This document shows positions 34,115 through 42,126 of a stretch of 64,000 nucleotides of DNA, one piece after another (within the stretch, counting starts at the first letter, position 1; every line of letters begins with the position of its first letter). The notes beneath the pieces were generated by a model. That model worked only from the letters and a program-made list of their open reading frames with translations. It ran no database searches and was not told the origin of the DNA. The position numbers and the translations under genes are program-made. The DNA is from Diacronema lutheri (taxonomy: Eukaryota > Haptophyta > Pavlovophyceae > Pavlovales > Pavlovaceae). The stretch is taken from NCBI GenBank assembly GCA_019448385.1, contig JAGTXO010000006.1, positions 744,001 through 808,000 on the forward strand, read 5' to 3'.

Positions 34115-34939
34115 CGGCGCGCCTCCGCCTCGCCTCGCCCGCCGTGGTTGGCGTGGACCTACCCCAACCCACTCGCCGTGCGAGTGGCGGGATGGTGGCG
34201 TGCCAGCGACGCTGCCACGCCTGTGACGCACCGGGGCGCAAAGAGGGTCGAGCACACGCGCGCGAGCGGGTCAAAGTTCGCGTTCCAGCACGTTGCCACG
34301 TCAGCCGGCGGCAACCGTGCCGACTTCTCATGCCGTCCAGCTGCCTGCCGTAATTTGACGAGAGCATGAGCTTGCCGATGTGCGCGCGCGCCATGTGGAT
34401 CCGCTTGCGACCCTCGGCGTTGAGGTGCGCGTTCCTCGTCTGCTTTCTCGCCGTCAATCTGCGCCTGCGTTCAGGAGCTGTTGTTTCTGGGCGGGAAAGG
34501 CCACGAGGATGGCGGCCGCCGGCGCCGGAGGCCAAGACGACGCGGGGCGTGAAGTGCGGGCGTACGCGCTGCGACACCGTGGCACGCTTGAGGGCGTGCC
34601 GCCTCCTCAACGTCTACACACCGACGAGCAGGGAGGACGGTGGTGGGGTCGGGATGGCGCTGGCCGATCCGGCCACGTCCCGTGTAGTTCCGCCGAGGGC
34701 CCGAGCTTGCACAGCGTCGCGTGCGGCCTCAGCCCGAAGCATTGCCAGCTCGGCACGGCGACCATCCAGGCCATGCACGTCCAGCTCTATGCCTTTGCCA
34801 CGGCGAACATCGGAAACGGCATCGTCCGTGGGTCGACCCTAGGACGGGTGAGATGAAGCTCATCAAGCTGGGCGTCTCGCTCTTCACCGGCGGGCACACC
34901 AATGGGCGCATCGCAAAGCGCATACACCGGTGCCCACGA
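34115..34939. other. Intergenic region upstream of the first Fanzor locus
   Basis: 825 bp without a supported gene. Short open frames on both strands (for example GRKRIHMARAHIGKLML on the minus strand near 34400) look partly protein-like but have no start, splice pattern or recognised family. They could be fossil coding sequence carried by, or disrupted by, the adjacent element. Confidence 0.4.
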
Positions 34940-35344
34940 GTTCGGCCTGCGTCTGGGCCCGGACATTGCCCCGTCCAAACTCCTGGGCCCAGACGCAATG
35001 TTCGGCCTGCGTCTGGGCCCGGACATTGCCCCGTCCGGCTAACGTACGACTCGGGCGCGGCCGCACACTCGTACGAGTGTGCGTCCACGCCCGAGTCGGT
35101 TGGCAGCACTGAGACCATGCCCGGGCGCTCGGCGCGCGTGCGCGGTCGACCGCATCGTGAGTATCGCCGCGCGGACGCGCTTTCGGCAAGCGGGGCGGCG
35201 GCACGCTCCACTGTTCCGACTCGACGCACACTCGAACCGGCCTCGTACATCCGCCGGACGCACACTCAAACCGTCCGGACTTGCGGCGCGCTGTGTGTTC
35301 GACCCGCCGCCGCCGCCATCCACCCAGTTCGGCGGCGCTCGACC
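34940..35344. repeat. Direct repeat and palindromes upstream of Fanzor gene 1
   Basis: A 37-bp direct repeat occurs at 34940-34976 and 35000-35036. Between the copies, 34985-34997 (GGGCCCAGACGCA) is the reverse complement of a part of each copy, so a hairpin can form with either. At 35048-35097 lies a 50-bp palindrome: outer arms GACTCGGGCG/CGCCCGAGTC and a perfect 20-bp inner palindrome at 35063-35082. Near 35223-35273 the string GACGCACACTC recurs. The cluster sits directly before the Fanzor start codon and may be the left end of the mobile element, a promoter, or both. Confidence 0.75.
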
Positions 35345-38300
35345 ATGACGGCGCGGCTCCTGCCCGTCACGCTCGCCATCGCCGCCTGCTTTGGCGCGGC
35401 GCGCGGCACAGGGCTGCTCGACACCGCGCCGCTCGCCCTCTCCGCGTCTTCGTCTTCGGCCTCGCCTCTCGCCGACGCCGTCTCAGCCGTCGCGCTGCGG
35501 CCCGCCGACATGCTCGCCGGCGGCACCGTCGTTCCGAGCCTGCGCAACGTCGGCGGCATCGTGGCGCGATCCGCATCCTCCGCTCTGCTCGCCGACGCCA
35601 AGGACGGCCGCCCGTACGCGCCGCCCGACGGCGGCGCGCGCCGCACGGCGCAGGCGTCGCGGCCGCCGCCGTCGCCGTTCGCGTCGATCGTGCACGAGCG
35701 CCGACGCAGCCGGCGGGAGCGCCGGCAGGAGGCGCTCGCAGCGCGGCGGCGGGCGAGGCGGCTCTGCCACCGCCGGCTCTGCACGAGCGCGCGCGTGCCG
35801 CTGCGCGCGCGAGCGGCGCGCGGCGCGCGCGCTGCTGCGCTCGCGCTGTGCTGCGCAGGCCTGGCGTGCTCAACCGCGTGCATGGCCGGCGGCTGCGCGA
35901 CCGTCGCGCTCCCGCCAATCGCCGCCGAGCTCGCCTTGCTTGCCAAGCTGAGCGCGCGCGCCGCGTGCGAGTGGGCGCTCGCCGGAGGCGTTTTACGCGA
36001 CGGCGCGATCGCGGCTGCCAGCGCGTTGGCGCAGGTGTGGGCGACGACGCGGCTGCACACCGCCGCCCTCGCGATGCTCGGCGGCGGCCGCCGCCGCCGC
36101 CACGAGCCTGCGCGCGGCGCGCGCGCTACAGCGCTCGCGCTGTGCCGCGCAGGCCTGGCGTGCTCAAGCGCGTGCATGGCCGGCCGCTGCGCGGCCGTCG
36201 CGCTCCCGCCAATCGCCGCCGGGCTCGCCGTGCTTGCCAAGCTGAGCGCGCGCGCCGCGTGCGAGTGGGCGCTCGCTGGAGGCGTTTCACGCGACGGCGC
36301 GATCGCGGCTGCCAGCGCGTTGGCGCAGGTGTGGGCGACGACGCGGCTGCACACCGCCGCCCACGCGATGCTCGGCGGCGGCCGCCGCCGCCACGAGCCT
36401 GCGCGCGGCGCGGACGCTTGCGCGCGAGCGAGCGACGAGGCGTCCGCGCCCGCGCCCGAGCCGTGCGCGCAGTACGGCGCGTGCGAGCCTCCACACGCCG
36501 CCGGCGAACGCGGGTCGCGCTGCGATTCGCGCTCGCGCGTGCCGCCGCGCGAGCAACCGCCGCGCGTTTGGCCGCCGTTCCTCCTCTCCGAGCCGCGATG
36601 CGACTTTCGGCGCTACCTCTACCAAGGCGGGATCGAGCGGCTGGAGCATTACGTCGGCGCGCACAGGACCGACATGGTGATGGCCCACCTCGCCGAGCAG
36701 GACAAGTTGTACGCCAAGAACTGCGACGAGATGGGCCAGCCACGCATGCGCACTGCCGTGCAGCTCGCGGCGGCGGCGGCTGCGCGCGCTTCCGACGCTG
36801 CGCGCAGCGCCGCCGCCGCGCTGCCCGCGCCCGCCGCGCCGCTGCCGGCCGCCGCGCCGCCTGCCGCCGAGCCCGCGCCGCACGCCGAGGCCGAAGTGTG
36901 TGGCGAGTGCGAGCCGGGCGCGCCACGAGCGTGCGCCGATGGCGGCGAGGCGGAGGCGCGCGCCGGCGCAGCTCGCGCCGACCGCTCGCCGCTGCCGCCC
37001 GCCGCTGCTGCCGACGCACGCGCAACGGCGGGCGCGCGTGCGCCGCGCATGCCGTCGCGCCGCGCGTGCGGTGCGCGCTGCGCGCACGGCTGCGCTGCCA
37101 CGGGCGGCGATGAGCGCGCGAGCCGTGCAGCCACCGGTGCGACCAGCTGCGCTGACGCCTCCTCTGACGCCTCCTCCTCGGGCGAATCCCTCTACGCGGG
37201 CTCGGACTCTGACTCCGACAGCGGCGACGGCGGTGGCGGGCGCGGCGGCGGGCGCGGCGGCGGGCGCGGTGGGCGCGGCGGGCGTGGCGGACGCGGCGGA
37301 CGCGGCGGACGCGGCGGACGCGGCGGACGCGGCGGACGCGGCGGACGCGGCGCCGGTGGCGGCGGTGGCGGCGGTGGCGGCGCCGGCGGCGGCGGTGGCG
37401 GGCGTGGTGGCGGGCCACCGCGGAAGCGGCGGCGGCACGTGCGCGCCACGCAGCGGACGAACGCGCTCGACGACGCGGACCGCGCCCAGTCCATCAAGCT
37501 GCAGCTGAAGACCATCGTGCGCCCCGCCTACCTACAGCGCCTGCAGGACTTTGCGGTCAAATTTGACCGCATCGCCGCGCTCGCGATCGAGGTCGGCGTC
37601 GACTTTGCCGAGCGCGCGCTGCGCTCCGGCGAGGAGCTGCCCGCCGTGTGGACGGAGTCCTACTGGAGGGCGGTCATCTGGGCCGTGACGCGGAGGGCAA
37701 ACGCGACAGGCGCGCCTCCGCAGCACGGCCAGCTCGGCGCTGACCTCGCGGACTTTGCCGGCGCGCACCACGCCGTGCTCGCGGCGGGCGGGCCGATCGA
37801 GGTCGCGTACATGAGCGAGCCGCTTGGCTTCCTCGCCGCGCAGCTCACGACCAACTACGTGAACCACGTGCGCACGTCGGGCCTGTACGGCGCGCTCGAG
37901 GCGCTCGTCAAGGTGCACCTCGCGAGGGCCACGCGCGCCGAGCAGGTTGCTGCGGCTGGGCTCGCCGCGCCGCCGGCCGGCAACGGCGCGCTGTCCGCAC
38001 AGACGATGCGGCACGCGCGCCGCCGCTGCACGCGGCTCATCTGGCGCGGCCAGATCGACGACGCGTCGCTGCCCGCGGCGCTGCGCGACGACGACGACCT
38101 GCTGCGCGAAGTGCTGCCCGCTTGGGAGCTCTTTGACGCCGACTACGATGGCGACCACAACATGGGTTGGTACCTCAATCGCCCGCCGGGCGAGAGCAAC
38201 AACGTGGGCGACGGGTACAGGGCGATGCTCCGCGTGCTCGACGCCGCGCGGCAGGCCAACGGCGACAAGCCGATCGGCCCGAAGCGCCTTCCGGGCAAGA

Positions 38301-39442
38301 AGAGCCTCATCGTCGGCCACTTCCTCCGCATCGACGCCGAATTCCTGCAGCAGTGGCTGCGCTGCACCGAGGACTTTGTGCGGGCGTTTGGCAGAGGCTG
38401 CGACGCGGGGAGGCCGATCACCGCAGGCAGCAACCGCACGCGCATCTTCAACGTGGTGTTCAAGATGGACGTGTCGCGCGCGCTCCGGCGCGCCAACCGC
38501 GCGGGTGGCCACGTCTCGTCGATCCAGACGGACGGCAAGGCCGCGTCCGTCCTGCGCACGTGCGACGCGCCGCTCGCGAGTCGCCTTGGCGGGCGCGACG
38601 AGCTCGGGCGCACCGACTACCTCGACCGCGAGACGCTGCGCCGCTACACGCCCGAGCACATCGTCGTGTTCGACCCGGGCAAGAACAAGCTCTTCTTCGC
38701 GTGGGCGTGCGCGCTGTTCGGCGCGACGCGTCCGCGCACGCTCAGCTGGTCGGCGGCGCGGCACCGGCGGCTCGCCGGCGAGCGCCGCGCGACGGAGCAG
38801 ATGCTGCGGCGCAAGAAGATGACGGTCGTGCGCGGCGACCCGCAGCGCCGCTCGATCGCGCAGCTCGAGGAGGCGCTCGCGGGCCGCGACGGCCACAGCG
38901 CGCCGCTGCTCAACGAGGACGAGCGCCGCGAGGCGCGCGAGCTGCTGCGAGGCGCGTACGGGCACGAGTGGTTCCGCACGCACCGCATGCACGCCTACTC
39001 CAACCACCAGCGCGCGCACAGCAGGATGGTCGACGCGTTCGCGGCGACGTACGGCGGGCTGGGCGAGGTCGTGATCGCGGTCGGCGACTGGAGTCTGCAG
39101 CTGCACTACCCCAAGTTTGGCAAGTGGCACGAGCGCGGCAAGATGCCGTCGCAGACGATGGGCATCGTCGACGCCTTCCGCGCGCGCGGCTACACGATCG
39201 GCTTCATCGACGAGAGCTACACGTCGCAGGACTGCAGCAAGTGCGACGGCAAGAGCTGCTGCGACTTCTTCACCAAGACGCGCCGGCAGGTCCGCGTGCG
39301 CAAGCACGACCCGTCGAGCCCGATGACCAACCGCGTCGTCAAGACGCTCGTGCGCTGCGCGTGGTGCCGAACCATCTTTGACCGTGACTTCAACGCCGCG
39401 CGCAACATCTACAAGAAGGCGCTCGAGCTGCGCGGGCCGTGA
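35345..39442 (+). CDS. Fanzor (eukaryotic TnpB-like RNA-guided DNA endonuclease), long form with RGG tract
   Basis: A 1365-residue frame from ATG 35345 without introns. The C-terminal ~630 residues carry the nuclease. RuvC-I is IVVFDPGKNKLFFAW with D1110. The RuvC-II strand is VVIAVGDWSLQLH, where the glutamate of bacterial TnpB is replaced (Gly, then D1248); E1290 in GFIDESYTSQ, 42 residues later, is the likely substitute seen in Fanzors. The zinc ribbon has C1297/C1300 and C1338/C1341. RuvC-III is FDRDFNAARNIYKKAL with D1348. Before the core lie a duplicated Ala/Leu-rich module (residues ~160-355), a segment CDFRRYLYQGGIERLEHYV, an acidic Ser stretch, an RGG-rich tract (about residues 623-692) and a basic PPRKRRRHVR, a probable NLS. 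The true start could be downstream. The family cuts DNA using a guide RNA encoded nearby. Confidence 0.9.
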   Translation: MTARLLPVTLAIAACFGAARGTGLLDTAPLALSASSSSASPLADAVSAVALRPADMLAGGTVVPSLRNVGGIVARSASSALLADAKDGRPYAPPDGGARRTAQASRPPPSPFASIVHERRRSRRERRQEALAARRRARRLCHRRLCTSARVPLRARAARGARAAALALCCAGLACSTACMAGGCATVALPPIAAELALLAKLSARAACEWALAGGVLRDGAIAAASALAQVWATTRLHTAALAMLGGGRRRRHEPARGARATALALCRAGLACSSACMAGRCAAVALPPIAAGLAVLAKLSARAACEWALAGGVSRDGAIAAASALAQVWATTRLHTAAHAMLGGGRRRHEPARGADACARASDEASAPAPEPCAQYGACEPPHAAGERGSRCDSRSRVPPREQPPRVWPPFLLSEPRCDFRRYLYQGGIERLEHYVGAHRTDMVMAHLAEQDKLYAKNCDEMGQPRMRTAVQLAAAAAARASDAARSAAAALPAPAAPLPAAAPPAAEPAPHAEAEVCGECEPGAPRACADGGEAEARAGAARADRSPLPPAAAADARATAGARAPRMPSRRACGARCAHGCAATGGDERASRAATGATSCADASSDASSSGESLYAGSDSDSDSGDGGGGRGGGRGGGRGGRGGRGGRGGRGGRGGRGGRGGRGGRGAGGGGGGGGGAGGGGGGRGGGPPRKRRRHVRATQRTNALDDADRAQSIKLQLKTIVRPAYLQRLQDFAVKFDRIAALAIEVGVDFAERALRSGEELPAVWTESYWRAVIWAVTRRANATGAPPQHGQLGADLADFAGAHHAVLAAGGPIEVAYMSEPLGFLAAQLTTNYVNHVRTSGLYGALEALVKVHLARATRAEQVAAAGLAAPPAGNGALSAQTMRHARRRCTRLIWRGQIDDASLPAALRDDDDLLREVLPAWELFDADYDGDHNMGWYLNRPPGESNNVGDGYRAMLRVLDAARQANGDKPIGPKRLPGKKSLIVGHFLRIDAEFLQQWLRCTEDFVRAFGRGCDAGRPITAGSNRTRIFNVVFKMDVSRALRRANRAGGHVSSIQTDGKAASVLRTCDAPLASRLGGRDELGRTDYLDRETLRRYTPEHIVVFDPGKNKLFFAWACALFGATRPRTLSWSAARHRRLAGERRATEQMLRRKKMTVVRGDPQRRSIAQLEEALAGRDGHSAPLLNEDERREARELLRGAYGHEWFRTHRMHAYSNHQRAHSRMVDAFAATYGGLGEVVIAVGDWSLQLHYPKFGKWHERGKMPSQTMGIVDAFRARGYTIGFIDESYTSQDCSKCDGKSCCDFFTKTRRQVRVRKHDPSSPMTNRVVKTLVRCAWCRTIFDRDFNAARNIYKKALELRGP
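35821..36411 (+). repeat. Tandem 294-bp duplication inside Fanzor gene 1
   Basis: Two copies, about 35821-36114 and 36115-36411, keep the reading frame and differ at scattered positions (for example ACSTACMAGGCATVALPP versus ACSSACMAGRCAAVALPP). Each encodes about 98 residues ending LGGGRRR(R)HEPARGA. The divergence is low, so the duplication is recent. The segment is moderately hydrophobic, which is odd for a nuclease. Confidence 0.9.
37211..37422 (+). repeat. Gly/Arg-coding low-complexity tract in Fanzor gene 1
   Basis: Short GGCGGACGC-type units repeat in tandem and encode GGRGGRGG modules followed by poly-Gly with Arg. Such RGG boxes bind RNA and promote condensates. The same bases could also form G-rich DNA structures. 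A basic cluster KRRRHVR follows at once. Confidence 0.9.
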
Positions 39443-39447
39443 GCGAC

Positions 39448-40105
39448 GGGGCTGCCGCCGGACACGAGCGCGCGCGCGCGCGCACCGCGCGCTCGTGTCC
39501 GGCGGCGCAGCCCCCTCGCCGCTCGCTCGCGCCCGAGCTGACGCGCGCGGCCGCGCGCGTGGCGAGCTCCTCCGCTCGCCACGCACGCGGTTGCCGACGC
39601 GCGCTCGCGCAAGCACCACCACCACGCCGCAAGGCGCACAGACCTGCACGCTCCGTACGGCGGCGCTGCTGTCGGAGGCAAGTTGCTTGCCCCCAGCAGC
39701 AGGCCGTCGGGCCGATCCGCCCCGTGCATGTGCACGGGGCGGTCGGGCACTTGGGTTACCGCGTCCGCGGATCGCGCGCGCACAGGCGCGCGCGGCTGCG
39801 TTCGCGCACAGGCCGCTACTAGGTGTGCGGTCCCCTCTGCTCGGAGTTTGCGCCGATGGCACAGGCCGCCGGCGTCACGCAAACGAGGTCACATCGTCTG
39901 CCGCAGTTTGGGCTCGCCCATTTTGGGCGAGCCCAGCTGTGGGCCCCCGGCCGCGCTGGCCGGGGGCGCGTTGCTTTCTGGATGCGGCGGCCCCAGAGAG
40001 CGCGCCCCTGCCCCTGCGGTCGGCGCGCGTGCGCGCGCCGACCGCAGGGGCCAGGGTTGCGATCATGTATGGGGCGCACAGGCGCCCTATATATGCGTAG
40101 GGCGC
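39448..40105 (+). other. Array of inverted repeats downstream of Fanzor gene 1; candidate guide-RNA (fRNA/omegaRNA) and element end
   Basis: Starting 6 nt after the stop codon, at least nine hairpins follow one another: 39448-39514 (8 bp, GC bulge, about 19 bp); 39541-39560 (perfect 20-bp palindrome); 39558-39583 (10-bp arms); 39665-39700 (7 + 6 bp); 39712-39747 (core 12-bp arms, 2-nt loop); 39909-39935 (12-bp arms, TTT loop); 39943-39967 (10-bp arms); 40011-40050 (19-bp arms, 2-nt loop, extendable to 40006-40056 with one mismatch); 40082-40105 (8-bp arms). No protein-coding exon is supported here. In TnpB and Fanzor elements the guide RNA is transcribed from this 3' non-coding side, so some of these stems may be its scaffold; the outermost may mark the transposon end. 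This role is inference. Confidence 0.55.
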
Positions 40106-40272
40106 GTCAAGGCTGCTCGCCTCGCGCGCTGCGCCCGCGCCCGTGCGTGGGCGTCGAGTCCCCTGGGCGTGCGGTCGCGCGTCCGACTCAACACGGCGCA
40201 GCGGTTCGTACGTATGCCTGCTGACTGAAATAGCTGGAGGGGGCAGCCGGCAGCGCCTGCGTGGGCAGCCTG

Positions 40273-41511
40273 TCAGAACGGATTCACCCAACGCGCGAGG
40301 TGCAGCACGGCGCCTGGGAGTACGAGCGCGCCCGGCAGTCCGACGCACGCCTCTTCCTCGCCCCCTTCCTCACCCGTGCTTTTTGCGCGCGCCGGCCGCT
40401 GCGCGCGGACGAGCGCGAGCAGCCGCGCACCGAGCGCATCGTCGCCCGACATGGGCCCCTCGAGGATTGGGTCGGTGTGCGACTTGCCCTGGTACAGCTC
40501 GACACGCACGCATACGCCAGCAGCGCGCAGCACGGCGGCAAAGTCGGCAGTCTGCGCCCATGGCACTGTCGCGTCCGCCGTGCCGTGCGCGAGCAGGCAC
40601 GGCAGCCGCGCAAGCGCGGCGCGGCCGCCGGCGCCGAGCGCCTCGACGCGCGCTAACGGCGAGAGCACGGCCGGGTTGGGGAAGAGGCGCGAAAGGAGCC
40701 GGCGGTCAAGGCCGCGCGCGTGCAGCGTCTCGACGAATGGCGCGAGGCTGAACGGGCCCGAGACCCCCACCCACGAGCGCAGTTGCTCCAGTCGCCATGC
40801 GCGGCGTGCACGTTTGCACGGGGCGCCGCCCGTGGGGCGTGCGGCCTGCGCCGCGGCGCGCTCGGCGAGGACGAGCGCGACGAGGTGCGCGCCGGCCGAC
40901 TGGCCGACGAGTGTCACGTTGCGCGCGTCGCCGCGCAGCCGGCGCACGTTGCGCAGCGTCCACGCGATGGCCGCATCGACATCGTCAGCCATGCCGGGGA
41001 TCGCCGCGTGCGGAAAGTTGCGGTAGTCGGGGCAGACGACGAGCACGCCGTTCGCCTGGAGGAAGAGCGCTTGCAGGTACGGCCACGCCTTATACCCGAT
41101 AATCCAAGCGCCGCCCGACACGAAGATGACCACTGGGTGCGGCGCGCCGTCGCGCGCGGGCGGCGGCGCGTACACGTCGAGCTGGTGCCGGACCGAAGGG
41201 CCGTAAGGCACGTTCTTGAACACGCGGCGGTGGAGGAGATAGCGGCAAAACTGTGGGCCGAGCACGGGCAGCGTGAGCGCGACGAACGCCGCGAGCCGGG
41301 CGAGCTGCAGCAGCCACAGGCCAGGCAGGCCGACGAGCGGCTGCAGGCTCGCCCACATCTGGCCGCACCAGACGAGCGTGCCGAGCGCACCGCGGTCCCG
41401 GCGGATCGGATTGGCCGACGACGCGGCGCGGAGAGGCGCATCTTCGCCAACCCGCGCCTCGCGCCTTGTGGGATGTGCCTCGCGCCTCGCGGAATGCGCC
41501 TCGTTGCACAT
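40273..41511 (-). CDS. Alpha/beta hydrolase, isoprenylcysteine alpha-carbonyl methylesterase (ICME)-like
   Basis: About 412 residues from the ATG complementary to 41509-41511 (MCNEAHSARR); an internal ATG at 41358 (MWASLQPLVG) is an alternative. A membrane helix GLWLLQLARLAAFVALTLP precedes the catalytic domain. The oxyanion motif VSGGAWIIGYKAW, the substrate motif PDYRNFPHAAIPGM and the nucleophile VGQSAGAHLVALVL are all in the ICME order. The acid and base are in HGTADATVPW and YQGKSHTDPI. In plants ICME removes the methyl group from carboxyl-methylated prenyl proteins in the ER/Golgi. A copy of the dispersed repeat begins 77 bp upstream of this gene's start. Confidence 0.85.
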   Translation of the reverse strand: MCNEAHSARREAHPTRREARVGEDAPLRAASSANPIRRDRGALGTLVWCGQMWASLQPLVGLPGLWLLQLARLAAFVALTLPVLGPQFCRYLLHRRVFKNVPYGPSVRHQLDVYAPPPARDGAPHPVVIFVSGGAWIIGYKAWPYLQALFLQANGVLVVCPDYRNFPHAAIPGMADDVDAAIAWTLRNVRRLRGDARNVTLVGQSAGAHLVALVLAERAAAQAARPTGGAPCKRARRAWRLEQLRSWVGVSGPFSLAPFVETLHARGLDRRLLSRLFPNPAVLSPLARVEALGAGGRAALARLPCLLAHGTADATVPWAQTADFAAVLRAAGVCVRVELYQGKSHTDPILEGPMSGDDALGARLLALVRAQRPARAKSTGEEGGEEEACVGLPGALVLPGAVLHLARWVNPF

Positions 41512-42126
41512 CGGCCGCGCGAGCCGCCGGCGCCGCCCGGCCCAAAAATGTTTTTGAGTGGCGGCAGGGGCGCTCACATTTTGAAAATACTAACGACGCT
41601 TACAGGCGGGTCAGCAGGAGGGGCGCGCACGGGGCCGAGGCTGGACAAACGGAGCGAGCGAAAGGGCGCACGCAACATCAGGCCGAAATCAGGGCGTCGA
41701 CCTTGTGCACGCCGGCAGCGGGAACGGCCGGGACGGCAAGGACGTGGCATTTTGAAAATACTAACGGCGCTTACGTCAGGACAGCGGGGTCAGCACCAGC
41801 TGCGGGGGAATCGAGTAGCCACCGATGTCGTCGATCCCCGCGCATCCCGGTCACCAGCGAGCGGGCAGCGAGGCCCGACGGGCCCAAAGGGCCCGCACGT
41901 GCCTAACCGCCGCGCGCTGCCGGTCGCGTGCCGCCGCCCGCGTGCAGGCGATACACGCCGTCCAAACCACCGCACGCGTCAGCGCCCGCTTCCGCCGCCT
42001 GGTCGGCCGCACGACGCGGCGCCGCCCCCGCGCGCACCATGCGCGCGCGCGCGAGCAGCAGCTGCGCGTGCCCGCACACCACGCACGCGGCGAGCTGGTG
42101 GCGCATGACGCGCTCGAGCGACGCCT
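41512..42126. other. Repeat-rich intergenic region
   Basis: 615 bp between the ICME-like gene and the IQ protein gene. It holds dispersed-repeat copy B and two of three copies of a 14-bp motif. On the minus strand a stretch reading ASLERVMRHQLAACVVCGHAQ (near 42045-42120) looks coding and might be a further exon of the IQ protein, but no convincing splice junction was found. Confidence 0.5.

Follow-up and report, generated by a model that had tools for sequence, protein, structure and literature searches.

A predicted Fanzor1 nuclease gene on a recently multiplied mobile element of the haptophyte Diacronema lutheri, with a candidate guide-RNA scaffold at its 3' end

The subject of this report is a Fanzor locus in a window of 64,000 nucleotides (nt) from Diacronema lutheri (contig JAGTXO010000006.1, G000:C89:744001-808000), where the window means the whole of that stretch; it was compared with the genome assembly, which has 43,492,796 bases in 103 contigs. 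Fanzors are programmable eukaryotic nucleases, related to the CRISPR-type RNA-guided DNA cutters. Our analysis of sequence and structure models supports the locus as a genuine Fanzor1, thus a known enzyme family with a new element within it, and nuclease activity is predicted. Comparison with its relatives identifies the locus as a member, truncated at its 5' end, of a multicopy mobile family that has recently multiplied in D. lutheri. The whole is probably best read as a Fanzor1 gene on such an element, whose 3' side would yield an omega RNA with a guide derived from the flank.

That the Fanzor gene is real, beyond chance, is confirmed by its Pfam match, its codon-position guanine-plus-cytosine (GC) content and its Fanzor1 fold. 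In the scan of the window for open reading frames, its frame extends without a stop from 34688 to 39442 (1584 codons), and the protein counted from the ATG at 35345 has 1365 residues, in agreement with the uninterrupted frame claimed by a first-pass annotation of this DNA. Because a local GC content of 71-79% makes long frames common by chance, frame openness alone carries little weight, and overlapping frames of 400-780 codons are also present at the Fanzor region. The protein matches PF07282 (Cas12f1-like TNB domain) with an expect value (E) of 1.4e-9 and 38.4 bits, the cut-off being 26.3. Codon-position GC, measured in 300-nt segments along the Fanzor frame, carries the signal of a true gene over 37388-39187 (0.46-0.55 at the second and 0.91-0.99 at the third position) and a weaker one, compatible with a gene, over 35288-36787, with no gene signal in the low-complexity part 36788-37387 or in 34688-35287; this profile fits a start near the ATG at 35345.

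The protein has the catalytic arrangement of Fanzors, which Yoon and colleagues describe (PMC10711439) as a DPG motif at RuvC-I, a glutamate shifted to six residues ahead of the zinc ribbon, and a RuvC-III aspartate four to eight residues past that ribbon. D1110-P-G lies at 38672-38680, E1290 stands six residues ahead of the first CxxC (E1290 SYTSQD C1297), and the ribbon lies between RuvC-II and RuvC-III and is followed by D1348 seven residues after C1341. The place of the canonical TnpB glutamate, about 50 residues ahead of the zinc ribbon, is occupied by Gly-Asp-Trp (residues 1247-1249), and the D-E-D set is intact. The first-pass annotation had correctly located D1110 (38672), the CxxC pairs at 1297/1300 and 1338/1341, and D1348 (39386); the RuvC-II region that it reported is also present, with its glutamate off the canonical place and in the alternative Fanzor position, E1290. 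All 7 rows of an alignment of the window protein with six sequences of other Fanzor families from the same genome have this glutamate and the four cysteines, as do all 11 rows of a larger alignment, in which the window family accounts for four copies; D1110 and D1348 are present in at least 90% of those 11 rows. The Fanzor1 motif described by Bao and Jurka, D-X(125,275)-[TS][TS]-xx-C4-X(5,50)-RD (PMC3627910), likewise fits the window protein, with 182 residues lying between D1110 and T1293 and five between C1341 and R1347.

Comparisons of profile and fold, both proposed in the first-pass annotation, point the same way. A profile built from the window protein and a relative of 44% identity has SpuFz1 of Spizellomyces punctatus as its best match in PDB (whole-sequence E 7.8e-4), with the catalytic residues in register; if the D and N of the SpuFz1 DPN motif are D383 and N385 (PMC10432273), D1110 corresponds to D383 and E1290 to the catalytic E541. 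In a single-sequence phmmer search of PDB, glycine-rich matches dominated and SpuFz1 appeared only at E 0.43. Ranks 1-7 in Foldseek and ranks 1-7 in VIA are all Fanzor1 entries, and a model lacking the RuvC fold, one of the outcomes that the annotation had named as speaking against its reading, did not arise. Its Fanzor identification thus agrees with the sequence hallmarks, Pfam, the profile and the fold alike.

The gene is carried on a eukaryotic mobile element, as dispersed copies with a common 3' end indicate. The core has 47 matches genome-wide, including pieces of single copies and distant relatives; 13 of them span all 666 residues at 93-100% identity, 11 being stop-free and two having one stop each. 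Homology of the window copy to the others starts at 34149 and ends at about 40095, so that the annotated locus end of 40105 has to be moved back to 40095. Longer copies extend upstream: copies E11 and E20 have a block of about 9.8 kb in common, E20 and three other copies have about 1 kb more, and those three run on into sequence common to two other dispersed places. The window copy is without about 5 kb that the long copies have upstream, and it retains the gene in full, 1.2 kb of the sequence ahead of it and all of the 3' region. The 5' ends vary among copies, and the true 5' end of the element was not found in the upstream comparison of long copies. A common 5' end at L029:4856 was considered and rejected as an artefact of a single-copy comparison, E20 and the three others sharing the further 1 kb; a search for asymmetric terminal repeats of 8 nt or more, with a 5' position that later proved not to be an end, found none.

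At the 3' end, 33 of 35 loci examined match the last 196 bases of the element and 31 of these reach its end, with 30 different flanks, while L021 and L056 stop short. The last base differs in L027, L047, L049 and L060, and in L025 the last eight bases could not be aligned, its end being an extrapolated position. Allowing up to two mismatches, the genome contains 27 occurrences of the last 24 nt (reversed control, 0). The element closes with a hairpin, CATGTATGGGGCGC-ACAG-GCGCCCTATATATG, and ten distinct loci have, within the stretches compared, no more than the final 39 to about 290 bases and no nuclease gene (L054 and L055, which have one flank in common, were counted once). The 653 bases after the stop codon have a folding energy of -475 kcal/mol, compared with -370 on average for 20 shuffles (z -15.0), and 39900-40115 alone gives z -10.4 (200 shuffles). 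In a consensus structure over 21 aligned copies, 96.9% of cells are paired against 30-52% with partners slid; the shuffle average is 96.2%, and none of 500 shuffles reaches 96.9%. Changes on both sides of a pair occur in 13 cells, which again none of 500 shuffles attains. The features of the locus are collected in Table 1.

Table 1. Features of the Fanzor1 locus, in positions of the window
Feature	Position	Strand	Basis or remark
Mobile element, window copy	34149..40095	+	5'-truncated; common 3' end; limits of homology to other copies
Fanzor1 gene	35345..39442	+	1365 residues; inferred start codon; codon-position GC rises at ~35288
Two near-identical 283-nt repeats, Ala/Arg-rich, in N-terminal extension	35816..36392	+	294 nt (98 codons) apart
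Gly/Arg-rich linker	37222..37414	+	Repeat family D1; translation
Basic stretch PPRKRRRHV, possible nuclear localisation signal	37415..37441	+	Translation
Conserved Fanzor core, 666 residues	37442..39439	+	44% identity to L028; 13 full-length genome matches
RuvC-I aspartate D1110 of DPG motif	38672..38674	+	Pairs with D of SpuFz1 DPN motif
Gly-Asp-Trp, residues 1247-1249, at place of canonical TnpB glutamate	39083..39091	+	Translation, alignment
Alternative RuvC-II glutamate E1290	39212..39214	+	Invariant in alignments; pairs with glutamate of SpuFz1 DEYKTS
Zinc ribbon C1297-x2-C1300 ... C1338-x2-C1341	39233..39367	+	Translation, Pfam, alignment
RuvC-III aspartate D1348	39386..39388	+	Translation; at least 90% of 11 rows
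3' non-coding region, chain of long hairpins	39443..40095	+	Folding energy
Candidate omega-RNA scaffold	39900..40095	+	Folding z and pairing over 21 copies; putative RNA
Terminal hairpin, 14-bp stem with G-U pairs, ACAG loop	40064..40095	+	Closes at element boundary
Flanking host DNA, would-be guide	40096..40115	+	By analogy with known Fanzors; 31 ends, 30 distinct flanks

Known Fanzors are described as drawing their omega RNA from the transposon end and the guide from the 3' flank (PMC10432273), and the omega RNAs described for Fz1 measure 75-150 nt and have several stems (PMC11423790). Judged from the DNA alone, the structure and the element boundary in the window fit this arrangement. The hairpin-rich 3' region would accordingly be transcribed as the omega RNA scaffold, and the last 15-20 nt of the RNA would come from the flanking DNA past 40095 and act as the guide, in which case each copy would carry a guide to its own insertion site. 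The nuclease could then cut element-free copies of that site and so favour spread or retention of the element, and copies consisting of the 3' end only could give guides in trans, much as ghost loci do for SpuFz1. Movement was most likely one-ended, from the 3' hairpin, as in the Fanzor1 Helitron2 elements of Chlamydomonas. It is possible, as the first-pass annotation suggested, that the window copy itself is active with RNA from its 3' side, which is strongly structured up to the closing hairpin.

Several results weigh against this interpretation. The two aligned stretches of the SpuFz1 profile match are individually at E 0.047 and 20, neither significant, and the structure model of the whole core is poor, with a predicted local distance difference test (pLDDT) score of 48.6. 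Covariation in the 3' region is modest: both-side changes affect only 5 of 69 pairs, a level that 30 of 500 shuffles attain, and pair types are no more numerous than after shuffling (390 of 500 shuffles reach the observed number). The window-copy hairpin at 39910-39934 is absent from many copies, and Rfam has no match at gathering scores for the 3' region. No target-adjacent motif is readable, since the 5' ends vary and the 30 distinct 3' flanks are without a clear consensus; a T at flank position 2 occurs in none of the 30. Of 14 copies examined, the 12 with a core of 2001 nt contain 84 base variants, with a ratio of nonsynonymous to synonymous polymorphism (pN/pS) of 1.04 pooled over their 66 pairs and of 0.76 by distinct variants, a count outside which L024 and L026, with cores of another length, were left. 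Individual copies show no clear sign of maintenance.

The absence of such a sign bears on the alternative of a dead or drifting passenger, in which the window copy would be 5'-truncated and its frame open only through youth. With the pN/pS near one go the missing 5 kb of upstream sequence and the shorter frames that some copies have upstream of the core; against it, the core frame and the catalytic residues of the window copy are intact, the great majority of full-length core copies are free of stops, and the gene, its upstream 1.2 kb and the full 3' end are retained. We regard this alternative as doubtful, though it deserves to be kept in mind. The copies look young and drift neutrally after insertion, as is usual for mobile elements, and conservation of the protein between families indicates that the lineage, rather than the window copy, has had a function over the long term. 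Two arguments were discarded: the ratio of nonsynonymous to synonymous substitution rates (dN/dS) as evidence for function, since the result went against it, and an apparent lack of insertions and deletions in the core of the 12 copies, since the copies of other length had been dropped beforehand.

Alternatively, the 3' region could be a DNA signal for one-ended transposition of the rolling-circle type instead of a guide RNA, in which case the Fanzor would work with RNA from elsewhere or not at all. The terminus alone seems sufficient to mark the end, because the hairpin sits at the exact end and 3'-only copies go down to 39-46 bp, and 3' hairpins and 5' truncation are among the features that Bao and Jurka (2013) report for Helitron2 (PMC3627910). 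The folding, however, spans 650 nt, well past the terminal hairpin, omega RNAs known for Fz1 derive from the end of the transposon and have several stems in 75-150 nt, and the G-U pairs of the stem are kept in most of the 21 copies. A DNA signal in place of a guide RNA is unlikely in our assessment.

Variable 5' truncation combined with a common 3' stem would also be consistent with a carrier that is a retrotransposon without long terminal repeats (non-LTR), or that was moved by one. But in a table of 15 rows, eight of which have the 5' junction within the DNA compared, no junction has a duplication adjoining the ends (in four, matches of 4-6 nt lie away from the junction and have a length expected by chance, and the other four have none; L020 is an invalid test, as its break is not its true 5' end), no variable 3' tail is present, and no reverse transcriptase was found in the frames scanned, which are part of all frames. 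Such a carrier appears rather improbable. A bacterial TnpB or Cas12f acquired by contamination or recent transfer, to which weak NCBIfam TnpB/Cas12f matches far under the cut-off might point, can practically be set aside given the alternative glutamate, the DPG motif, Fanzor1 structures at top rank, copies dispersed through a 43.5-Mb eukaryotic assembly, and a search of 5.8 billion protein sequences in which none of 7997 scored candidates was related at E 0.001 or better.

Ahead of the core, the protein has an extension of about 700 residues from the ATG, rich in Ala, Arg and Gly. Open frames among the copies measure 1484, 1584, 1681 (twice) and 1779 codons, in steps of about one repeat unit; other copies fall outside this series (1632, 1518, 1329, 1134, 1038, 983, 793 and 791 codons), some of them because they are truncated or broken. 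An alignment of 10 copies over the 1010 nt ahead of the core has 14 gap runs, of which 12 have a length divisible by three, a figure to be read with the fact that the repeat units there have such lengths anyway. One may guess that PPRKRRRHV, just ahead of the core, serves nuclear import.

The long copies have a second gene upstream, which is disrupted in E11 and has 650 open codons in L062; along 329 residues it is 44% identical to a frame of 2002 codons in L063 (331-6339). The L063 DNA match recurs with the same score on C95, C94, C66, C37 and C33, hence at six places with L063 itself. Pfam gave no family above cut-off in the upstream frames scanned, and DUF6729 for the L063 frame stayed below cut-off at E 0.24, with a presumed likeness to DDE transposases. 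Just downstream of the element, an alpha/beta hydrolase frame (BD-FAE, E 1.8e-22) occupies 40276-41586 on the minus strand, its stop about 180 bases past the element end. The sequence TTTTGAAAATACTAACG(A/G)CGCTTAC occurs twice, at 41579-41603 and 41750-41774, 171 bases apart and with no other exact match in the genome; a similar inverse of it flanks the 5' end of copy L019.

The window family is not alone in this genome. A Pfam scan for TNB domains gave at least 148 matches with 150 of 306 candidates scored, and 109 of them have an identical 31.3 bits. At L069 (G000:C9:1154300-1158300), the coding signal follows frame 1 until about 2080 and frame 3 after about 2160; the first frame carries a Chromo domain (PF00385, E 8.1e-13) and the second a TNB domain (27.3 bits, cut-off 26.3) with the residues DPN, PEPYTSMHC and RD. 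This type is probably one gene with an intron near 2080-2170, a chromodomain-Fanzor fusion with a predicted splice. Tags of 40 bases from the chromodomain exon and the RuvC exon occur 208 and 230 times, respectively, at up to two mismatches (controls, 0), with no mismatch among the first 100 or so places listed per tag. Seven tag pairs compared by eye, each on one strand, lie 2450 bp (five, on C4, C5, C7, C9 and C46), 2452 bp (C2) and 2453 bp (C4) apart. A DNA match of 1401 bases from L069 reached full score in 36 of the best 40 of 874 candidates, L069's own place included. No tag matches were found in the window. Contigs C1, C6, C12, C26 and C29 (at their starts) and C14 (at its end) break about 850-860 bases past the TNB domain of this family, near the inferred 3' end of its element; either the assembly broke at identical repeats or the positions reflect a preference.

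Putting these families together, we lean slightly towards a genome with several Fanzor1 families at different stages of amplification, the largest being the chromodomain fusion with some 200 or more copies and the window family being a second, one-ended type, whose hairpin would double as guide-RNA scaffold and whose gene-less 3' ends would serve as trans guide loci. If true, Fanzors can be targeted to chromatin and can drive present-day genome invasion, and RNA-guided cutting would gain a chromatin-reading module if the fusion is real. No paper linking Fanzor with Diacronema was found, nor was a chromodomain-Fanzor fusion described in the literature searched, subscription papers lying outside the search, whereas one review brings up Fanzor together with haptophytes and four papers bring it up with Helitron; in viral contigs a search pattern fits 162 stretches, none of which was confirmed by tblastn. 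The guide-from-flank model can be tested in the native host: this young haptophyte family offers some 30 defined 3' ends that have flanks of their own, and gene-less ends that allow a test of guides given in trans. Many natural guide-like flanks in a young family, together with a chromodomain relative in the same genome, raise the locus above routine.

Among related systems, one lies in the same genome, the family of L028 (3237-7475, minus strand), which together with L035, L039 and L040 forms a second Fanzor family. Its core identity is 44%, and it has Ala/Arg-rich repeats and a Gly-rich linker upstream, as the window family does; it has one long copy with a 1412-codon frame, the other matches being fragments, and its DNA does not match the 3' region of the window element. 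The sequence shared within this family ends in L039 at a long hairpin, which hints that the family may likewise have a hairpin as its 3' end, but L028 and L035 have sequence in common past that point. In structural alignment, the window protein has about 21% identity to GtFz1 of Guillardia theta and PpFz1 of Parasitella parasitica. SpuFz1 (PDB 8gkh, 9ceu-9cez), the best PDB match by profile, is as described a 633-residue protein without the N-terminal extension of the window protein, and its elements are described with inverted repeats at both ends (PMC10432273), whereas only the 3' hairpin end was found in the window family. CRe-1, CRe-2 and CRe-3 of Chlamydomonas reinhardtii, of the Fanzor1 Helitron2 group, share an algal host with it (PMC3627910). 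The Fanzor genes of these elements are reported to have five or ten exons (PMC3627910), whereas the window core is uninterrupted, and a RepHel search found one PF14214 match in the D. lutheri genome, on contig C63, with no C63 place among 55 3'-end matches. Target-site duplications and T-rich targets are described for the CRe elements (PMC3627910) and were not found in the window family, so that, despite a 3' terminal hairpin of the Helitron2 kind, the window element is not filed as Helitron2 and is only said to move like CRe. This likeness was drawn from described features, with the ends of both sides compared by description, and it extends to 5'-truncated copies, over-abundance of 3' ends, a 3' hairpin and internal deletions in both (PMC3627910).

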